DNA of 64,000 nt from Caldisericota bacterium (GTDB lineage Bacteria; Caldisericota; JANLFM01). The notes under the pieces are model-generated. The model was not told the origin of the DNA. It did no database searches and was given only the letters and a program-made list of their open reading frames with translations. The DNA is taken from the NCBI GenBank assembly GCA_024655865.1, contig JANLFM010000001.1, positions 48,938-112,937 of the forward strand, in the 5' to 3' direction. The translations under genes were made by a program, and so were the position numbers. Below, piece after piece: positions 55,792-59,979 of this stretch. Every line of letters begins with the position of its first letter. The stretch's first letter is position 1.

Positions 55792-56286
55792 ATTTTCTTT
55801 CCCAAAATTTACCTGGAAAAAATTGAGGATCTCGAGCCCGGTTTCCTTATAGAAAGGGGCATTCAGGGAATTATTATCGATTTGGACAATACTATTGCCC
55901 CTCGAAGAGAAGGGGGAGTGCAAGAGAGCATCAGAGAATGGATTCAGAGAATGAAAGCCGGGGAATTAAAGCTGGTGTTGATTTCCAATAGCCCGGCCAG
56001 CAGAACCCGCAAATTCGCACAGGATCTTGATCTGGAGTTCATCGCTAGCGCCTTTAAACCCTTCCCTATGGCTTTTATTCGGGCTTCCAAAAAATTGAAC
56101 ATCCCTTTAAAAGCCCTGGCTGTAGTGGGAGACCAGATTTTCACCGATGTCCTTGGAGGAAATATCTGTGGGGCATTTACTGTTCTTGTTTCCCCGCTTT
56201 CCCGAAAAACTGATTTTTTCACGACCAAATTTGTGAGAGTTTTAGAAAGGTTCATCTTGAAGAAGTTTGAAAAGAAAAAAGAATAG
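55792..56286 (+). CDS. YqeG family HAD phosphatase, probable ATT start
   Basis: About 164 residues from 55792. The open frame runs back to a stop at 55726-55728, but no ATG, GTG or TTG exists before TTG 55882, and that TTG lies inside the HAD motif I (IIIDLDNTIAPR). The family N-terminus FPKIYLEKIEDLEPG is encoded upstream of it, so initiation must be at a rare codon; ATT at 55792 with GAGGAGGAG (55772-55780) is the best candidate. YqeG proteins resemble phosphatidylglycerophosphatase GEP4; ISNSP and VGDQIFTDVLGG complete the HAD motifs. Confidence 0.85.
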   Translation: MFFPKIYLEKIEDLEPGFLIERGIQGIIIDLDNTIAPRREGGVQESIREWIQRMKAGELKLVLISNSPASRTRKFAQDLDLEFIASAFKPFPMAFIRASKKLNIPLKALAVVGDQIFTDVLGGNICGAFTVLVSPLSRKTDFFTTKFVRVLERFILKKFEKKKE

Positions 56287-56293
56287 CGAACAA

Positions 56294-56337
56294 ATATCCA
56301 CATTTTTATCCACATTATCCACAGCCAGATATTCACA
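56294..56337 (+). promoter_or_regulatory. Cluster of four DnaA boxes
   Basis: Four nine-base sites on the same strand in 44 bases: ATATCCACA (56294), TTATCCACA (56306), TTATCCACA (56315), ATATTCACA (56329). The middle two are perfect matches to TTATNCACA and directly adjacent; the outer two differ at the first or an additional position. They fill the short gap between yqeG and tlpA. This could be a DnaA-dependent regulatory site, a DnaA-titration site or part of an origin. Confidence 0.75.
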
Positions 56338-56350
56338 GTTTTTACTCCGG

Positions 56351-56380
56351 TTGACATTCACCCTCCCTGCCACGTAAAAA
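56351..56380 (+). promoter_or_regulatory. Putative tlpA promoter
   Basis: Perfect TTGACA (56351-56356), 18-base spacer and TAAAAA (56375-56380), directly downstream of the DnaA boxes. The ATG begins six bases after the -10 element and has no ribosome-binding site, so the message could be leaderless. Confidence 0.55.
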
Positions 56381-56386
56381 TTAATC

Positions 56387-56959
56387 ATGAAAGAGAAAAT
56401 GCTGAAAAAACTTCTGATAGTCCTCACAGGGTTATTATTCGTGGGCCTCTTTGTGAGCGCATGTTCCCCGAGTGCCTCTGAGCTTAAGGAATCGAAGCCC
56501 GCTTATCTAGAACAGCCTTCCGAAACCCCGCCACCTGCTCCCACAGAAAAACCCACGGCAAGCAAGGCTCCTGACTTTGAAGCCATCACTATGACCGGGG
56601 AAAAACTTTCCCTGAGCTCCTTTAGAGGAAAAATCGTTATCCTCAATTTCTGGGCTACCTGGTGTCCTCCCTGTAGGGATGAGATCCCTGAGTTAAATAG
56701 CTTTTATGAGGAGTACAAGAACAGGGTTGTCTTCCTGGGAATTGAGATTATGGAATCCCGAGAGGAAGTAGAGCAATTTCTCCAGGAGCAAAGCATCCTG
56801 TACCCGATAATCCTTGACTCGGAACAGAAAACTTCCATATCCAATCTTTATCGAATCTCCCTCGTCCCTACGACATACGTCATCGATGAACAGGGGGCAA
56901 TCATAACCGTAATCATGGGGAGCACAACTTTTGAGTCCCTCTCCTCCTATCTGCCCTGA
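56387..56959 (+). CDS. TlpA/ResA-type thiol-disulfide lipoprotein
   Basis: 190 residues. Lipoprotein signal: KK, hydrophobic stretch, lipobox FVSAC with C26. A Pro-rich linker (30-60) leads to a thioredoxin fold with the active site WCPPC (C93, C96) and VPTTYVID with the cis-proline. It reduces extracytoplasmic disulfides, often on apocytochromes. ccdA starts on its last base, so CcdA is probably its electron donor. No cytochrome c genes in the window. Confidence 0.93.
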   Translation: MKEKMLKKLLIVLTGLLFVGLFVSACSPSASELKESKPAYLEQPSETPPPAPTEKPTASKAPDFEAITMTGEKLSLSSFRGKIVILNFWATWCPPCRDEIPELNSFYEEYKNRVVFLGIEIMESREEVEQFLQEQSILYPIILDSEQKTSISNLYRISLVPTTYVIDEQGAIITVIMGSTTFESLSSYLP

Positions 56960-57648
56960 TGAACGAGGTCAGTTTTCTTGTGGCCTTTGGGGCCGGGGTA
57001 CTATCCTTTTTCAGCCCATGCATTGTGCCTCTTTTGCCCGTCTACCTGGCGTTTCTCGGCGGAGCAGCCACGAAGGAAGTTAAGAGTCCACATAAAGGGC
57101 GGTTGTACCTGGGAGTTTTGCTCTTTGTTCTAAGCCTTTCCTCCCTCCTCTTTATCCAGGGTTTTCTGGCAGGCTCCCTGGGATACTTTCTTTTCCAGTA
57201 TAAGCGGCAGCTGGAGATAGCCTTCGGGATTATCATCTTTCTTTTCGGGTTCTTCATGACCGGCCTGGTACGGGTTCCCTGGCTTTATAAGGAGAAGGGG
57301 TTTTACCTGAAGGGTAAGATCGCAGGGGTCTCGCCTCTGCTTTCAGGAGTTATTCTGGGATTCGCCTTCTCCCTCACCTGGACTCCCTGTTCGGGACCAG
57401 TTCTGGCATCGATTCTCGCGCTGGCTGCCTCCTCGGGTGCTCCTATCCGTGGCGGTTTGCTTCTTTTCGTCTATTCCTTAGGTTTCTCCCTGCCTTTTAT
57501 CATAATAGCCCTTTTCTTCACAGGGCTGGCGAAACTTCTTGCACAAAAAATGAAACTTATTCGCACTCTCCAGATTATCTCGGCAGTACTTTTTATGGCT
57601 TTGGGTATCCTCTTAGCTCTGGGGATTTTCTCGCGAATTTTCTTTTAA
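56959..57648 (+). CDS. ccdA: CcdA/DsbD-like thiol-disulfide transmembrane transporter
   Basis: 229 residues, six membrane helices. The two redox cysteines are in FFSPCIVPLLPVYL (C21) and TWTPCSGPVLA (C144), both near prolines as in CcdA. It carries reducing equivalents from cytoplasmic thioredoxin across the membrane to TlpA. Start overlaps the tlpA stop (TGATGA). Confidence 0.94.
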   Translation: MNEVSFLVAFGAGVLSFFSPCIVPLLPVYLAFLGGAATKEVKSPHKGRLYLGVLLFVLSLSSLLFIQGFLAGSLGYFLFQYKRQLEIAFGIIIFLFGFFMTGLVRVPWLYKEKGFYLKGKIAGVSPLLSGVILGFAFSLTWTPCSGPVLASILALAASSGAPIRGGLLLFVYSLGFSLPFIIIALFFTGLAKLLAQKMKLIRTLQIISAVLFMALGILLALGIFSRIFF

Positions 57649-59820: not shown

Positions 59821-59979
59821 GGCCGTGCTAGACGGGGAGAGCGGAGCCCTGTGAACCCCGCCAGGTCCGGGAGGAAGCAACGGTAAGCAGATCGCTCCGG
59901 GTGCCGCAGGGAAGCCTTGCCGGAGCTGGCTGAAGGGATTCCGCTCGGAAGAGGGTCATCAAAGGTGGGTGCACGGTCC
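59821..59979 (+). ncRNA. ffs: Signal recognition particle RNA, compact form with Alu-type 5' domain
   Basis: The S-domain core is plain: CCAGGTCCGGGAGGAAGCA (59861-59879), then AAGCAG and GGTGCCGCAGGG (59890-59901), as in other bacterial SRP RNAs. The ends pair: GGCCGTGC (59821-59828) with GCACGGTC (59971-59978). The 5' part GTGCTAGACGGGGAG and the downstream GCCCTGT are the same words as in the Alu domain of the Bacillus large SRP RNA, whose 3' end also reads GGTGCACGGT. At about 159 bases it is longer than 4.5S RNA (about 100) and shorter than the Bacillus form (about 270). Directly precedes dnaX, as in Bacillus. Confidence 0.92.

Follow-up and report, generated by a model that had tools for sequence, protein, structure and literature searches.

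A conserved cluster of DnaA boxes behind yqeG in a family of Caldisericota, a candidate site of DnaA titration

We analyzed a stretch of 64,000 nucleotides (the window) from a Caldisericota draft genome and found an array of three phased DnaA boxes, joined within the genus by a weak fourth, in the short gap behind yqeG. The boxes, their spacing, and their location are conserved in the family while the neighboring genes change, and in a sister species the replication origin lies elsewhere, at dnaA-dnaN. We favor, with a probability of roughly 55%, the explanation that the array is an origin-proximal DnaA-box cluster outside oriC that titrates DnaA, as the DnaA-box clusters (DBCs) of Bacillus subtilis do.

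In a few model bacteria (Escherichia coli, Bacillus, and Streptomyces), DnaA-box clusters outside the origin are known to control when the chromosome is replicated. The array appears to be a further case of such clusters, in a group apparently without an earlier description; within an incomplete coverage of the literature, we found no report linking DnaA boxes with Caldisericum or Coprothermobacter. The retention of a cluster with constant spacing at one locus in a deep-branching, uncultured lineage would point to DnaA titration as either a widespread and ancient trait or one that has arisen repeatedly. The array also offers a short, well-defined piece of DNA for testing DnaA titration.

Architecture of the DnaA-box array

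The family sample consists of five draft genomes, which effectively represent two or three independent lineages. G000 is the genome of the window, and G001 (JANLFL010000001.1), a Caldisericota metagenome-assembled genome (MAG), is its closest relative and belongs to the same genus; G002 and G004 belong to another genus, and G003 completes the sample. The features of the locus are the following (window coordinates).

55792..56286, + strand: yqeG (HAD-family phosphatase), upstream neighbor; the array hugs its stop codon across the family
56294..56302, + strand: DnaA box 1, ATATCCACA, one mismatch; same position in G001; TTATCCACA in G002 and G004
56306..56314, + strand: DnaA box 2, TTATCCACA, perfect; TTTTCCACA in G001, TTATTCACA in G002, TTATCCACA in G004
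56315..56323, + strand: DnaA box 3, TTATCCACA, perfect, abutting box 2; CTATCCACA in G001, G002, and G004
56329..56337, + strand: DnaA box 4, ATATTCACA, genus only; identical 9-mer at equal offset in G001, absent in G002 and G004
56351..56380, + strand: possible tlpA promoter, TTGACA, 18-bp spacer, TAAAAA; weak -10
56387..56959, + strand: gene for a tlpA-like thioredoxin-fold lipoprotein, downstream neighbor in the G000/G001 genus only
56959..57648, + strand: ccdA/DsbD-like membrane gene, second in a putative operon after tlpA
59831-59913: SRP RNA

The initial annotation of this DNA had described four repeated boxes on one strand, two of them perfect and two near matches, and this description proved accurate: the boxes, whose starts follow one another at 12, 9, and 14 bp, run head to tail on the + strand from 56294 to 56337, inside the 100-bp gap between the yqeG stop codon (56286) and the tlpA ATG (56387). 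Box 4 differs from TTATCCACA at two positions and from TTATNCACA at one. The SRP RNA and the dnaX-ybaB-recR block noted near the array are likewise present. Searches of the yqeG-tlpA gap for an RNA element or a tRNA, and for a terminator, found none.

That the clustering is not due to chance, as had been claimed, is borne out by the shuffling of the window. None of 400 dinucleotide shuffles contained three or more boxes (at most one mismatch, same strand, within 40 bp), and none contained two perfect boxes as close as those in the array. A scan of the genome for box density, which had been proposed as a check, gave 24 perfect boxes in G000 (a 1.82-Mb draft of 63 contigs) versus 10 in the reversed control; genome-wide, two perfect boxes at most 50 bp apart occur only in the dnaA promoter and in the yqeG-tlpA gap. 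When up to three mismatches are allowed, the triple pattern occurs once in the G000 genome and not at all in the control, and the array is the top-scoring box cluster on its contig in both G000 and G001. As in clusters of the DBC type, several DnaA boxes are thus grouped beyond chance in noncoding DNA outside the origin.

Conservation of the array at one chromosomal site

The window region is syntenic between G000 and G001, whose YqeG proteins are 75% identical. The array itself is conserved at 40 of 44 positions, while the remainder of the gap matches at 17 of 30 positions at best. Over 66 other gaps, the median best 44-mer match between the two genomes is 26.5/44; the yqeG-tlpA gap is outside this ranking because a spurious reverse-strand open reading frame (ORF) overlaps it, and the value for the array was computed separately.

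Four of the five genomes, from both genera (G000, G001, G002, and G004), have the triple with the exact 12/9 spacing behind yqeG. The fifth genome, G003, has a degraded box-like quartet (CTTTCCACA, TTTTCCACA, TTATCCAAT, and GTTTCCACA) at this place. The initial annotation had made any function depend on conservation of the boxes in related genomes, and the conservation found here favors function. The array therefore shares with the DBC type both a conserved locus and proximity to the origin (184 kb in G001, with G000 syntenic; see below).

The sequence downstream of the array is variable. It is tlpA followed by ccdA in G000 and G001, an unrelated ORF of 160 amino acids in G004, a repeat-like sequence in G002, and an EamA transporter gene in G003. 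Homologues of tlpA and ccdA exist elsewhere in G002 and G003, and no DnaA boxes were found at them. Because the downstream gene varies and these homologues lack boxes, the array belongs to the chromosomal site and not to the redox operon.

In other families of the same phylum, no box cluster was found beside yqeG, and boxes did not cluster next to yqeG in other phyla either. At 71 yqeG loci, nearly all of them from other phyla, box density was 0.20 per kb upstream of the gene, 0.32 downstream, and 0.21 elsewhere, which is background. The array site is thus specific to the family.

The start of yqeG at 55792 (L032:1501) is probably an ATT codon, also in G001. In both genomes, conserved residues are encoded upstream of the first in-frame ATG, GTG, or TTG, which in G000 does not occur before 55882.

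Location of the replication origin

In G001, one 493-kb contig carries both the array (at 232.9 kb) and dnaA (at 416 kb), 184 kb apart. The cumulative GC skew of this contig reaches its minimum at 411 kb, at dnaA, and the strand-corrected third-position T-A skew has its change point at 420 kb, with F 68 against a permutation 99% level of 21. GC3 gives weaker agreement, with an F of 12.4 at 417 kb that stays under its permutation 95% level of 14.0. DnaA-trios, which are unwinding motifs (PMC8287927), are present in the dnaA-dnaN gap in all five family genomes and are followed by an AT-rich stretch. The origin of G001 is therefore at dnaA-dnaN and not at the array. The suggestion that the array marks an origin region without dnaA is not supported, and the skew minimum that was to be sought at the array lies at dnaA, 184 kb from the array, in the sister species, in which the skew was run. 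We rejected an origin at the array on account of the skew switch at dnaA and the location of the DnaA-trios.

The window contig and the dnaA contig of G000 are each syntenic with G001 and remain unjoined in G000. Given this synteny, the distance between the array and dnaA in G000 is probably about 184 kb, or about 11% of the chromosome.

The dnaA promoter itself carries DnaA boxes in G000, G002, G003, and G004, and that of G001 has none (L057 versus L058-L060, L029).

Alternative explanations for the array

The initial annotation had also proposed that the boxes tie thiol-redox genes to the replication cycle, with the array acting as a DnaA-responsive element for the tlpA-ccdA operon. DnaA controls sda in Bacillus. 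The array is in an activator-like position, since a TTGACA -35-like hexamer follows box 4 by 13 to 14 bp in both G000 and G001; box 4 (ATATTCACA) is conserved in this genus only; and DnaA is known to act as a transcription factor where boxes are clustered (PMC4447404). The aligned G001 promoter (TTGACA-17-AAAAAT) scores 10/12, and a promoter scan of the window made no call at the G000 TTGACA/TAAAAA pair. Because the hexamer lies just past box 4, an influence of DnaA on tlpA is predicted to be possible, within the genus only. The proposal leaves unexplained, however, why the array is conserved in genera that have another gene or no clear ORF downstream and why the tlpA and ccdA homologues of G002 and G003 are free of boxes, so that control of tlpA would be at most a secondary, genus-level use. 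The boxes are not linked to one gene across relatives, as they should be at a DnaA-controlled promoter. The array stays with yqeG where tlpA does not, and we rejected control of the redox operon as the main role; overall, we consider this explanation unlikely. In E. coli, datA acts on DnaA by ATP hydrolysis and DARS acts by ADP release, and the array might similarly catalyze nucleotide turnover on DnaA rather than simply sequester it. The fixed spacing of its three boxes and their conserved place on the chromosome fit this idea, and datA and DARS are likewise small noncoding box clusters (PMC4585315). However, datA requires a site for integration host factor (IHF) (PMC4585315), and no IHF-consensus site (WATCAANNNNTTR) was found within 8 kb of the array, which makes a datA-type mechanism less likely; we regard nucleotide turnover as quite improbable.

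The array could also mark the origin of the chromosome or, displaced from dnaA-dnaN, a second origin or a former one. Two observations point in this direction: Caldisericaceae have the same 12/9 triplet between dnaA and dnaN (see below), and once the switch at dnaA is accounted for, the G001 contig (C11) shows a second T-A skew step at about 228 kb (F 23), beside the array, which fits better than a gradient. Against them stand the main skew switch and the GC-skew minimum at dnaA. Moreover, a step of equal size (F 25.8) occurs at about 96 kb on a control contig without a dnaA match (C22), and at 232.9 kb in G001 there is no origin-type step in GC3, while the coding strand switches there in the direction opposite to that at an origin. 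A second origin inferred from the 228-kb step thus deserves little weight, and both steps are possibly old inversions. Nor does the array look like an origin: no DnaA-trio-like run was found near 56.3 kb, and GC contents of 27 to 37% in 60-bp windows reveal no long AT-rich stretch, as the initial annotation had noted. Taken together, we find an origin at the array extremely unlikely. It is also very improbable that the DnaA-loading array of the origin has been split in this family, so that the counterpart of the 12/9 triplet in the Caldisericaceae oriC lies behind yqeG, 184 kb off, and acts from there on initiation at dnaA-dnaN, either as a distant controller or as an auxiliary start site. Finally, the boxes may be functionless motifs that arose by chance or were inherited neutrally. 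The sample of only five genomes and the degraded version in G003 leave some room for this, but the shuffles never reached the density of the array, near-identity is limited to the array in an otherwise diverged gap, and the spacing is kept across genera; we strongly disfavor this explanation and hold it to be very unlikely.

Proposed DnaA titration and comparison with known systems

We favor a titration-type site because the array is conserved at its locus while its neighbors change. A datA-like titration site was among the options that the initial annotation had listed, and it is the one preferred here. Three phased boxes of the same orientation (12 + 9 bp, about two helical turns), together with the weak fourth box in the genus, would bind several DnaA molecules cooperatively. 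Separated from oriC by about 11% of the chromosome, the array would be copied soon after initiation. Its duplication would double a high-affinity sink for DnaA, the level of free DnaA would fall, and re-initiation would be restrained, with a putative effect on timing. What counts against titration is that one array of three to four sites is small beside the DnaA copy number in known bacteria, that the family sample amounts to two or three lineages, and that the site is confined to the family.

Six DnaA-box clusters near oriC, DBC1 to DBC6, were reportedly described in B. subtilis by Okumura et al. in 2012. Like the array, they are intergenic clusters of DnaA boxes that lie outside oriC in the origin-side part of the chromosome, whereas they contain 4 to 11 boxes versus 3 to 4 here, where a single array was found. 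Loss of the six DBCs leads to early initiation, and returning one of them restores the timing partly (PMC5295017). The boxes of E. coli are densest close to oriC, and DnaA titration has been measured in this species (PMC12371093). Among the strongest DnaA sites of B. subtilis is one between yqeG and sda (PMC4447404); it lies upstream of yqeG, whereas the array lies downstream. Homology between the two is unsupported, as the 71 yqeG loci are at background box density, and because yqeG loci elsewhere show no enrichment, we treat the shared adjacency as a coincidence.

Compared with E. coli datA, the array is likewise a noncoding DnaA-box cluster whose location apart from oriC is conserved, but datA has five boxes and an IHF site (PMC4585315), while no IHF consensus is present here. 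The array has three phased boxes and no IHF consensus. DARS1 and DARS2, which have a three-box core that promotes ADP release, depend in E. coli on activity elements in their flanks (at DARS2, sites for Fis and IHF).

Similar box layouts elsewhere

The box-3-box-0-box layout (12/9) is also found between dnaA and dnaN in five genomes from another family, for which we infer the name Caldisericaceae (e.g., G008, a single contig of 1,558,103 bp), on the strand opposite dnaA. This recurrence suggests that boxes laid out in this way are functional for binding DnaA in the phylum. The Caldisericaceae array is next to dnaA, within oriC, whereas the yqeG array is without unwinding motifs; the latter may be derived from an origin array.

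In Caldisericaceae, the oriC triple is part of arrays of four to five boxes (L186, L187, L188, L189, and L190). A near match to the triple is found in a genome of a third family (G015, L191:1501-1530), upstream of an ABC-transporter ATPase gene. In G000 itself, a box pair (ATATCCACA-3 nt-TTATCCACG) is located in the short gyrB-pfkA gap (L029:2775-2795; G000 C44:84774-84794) and has the same 12-bp step as the array.
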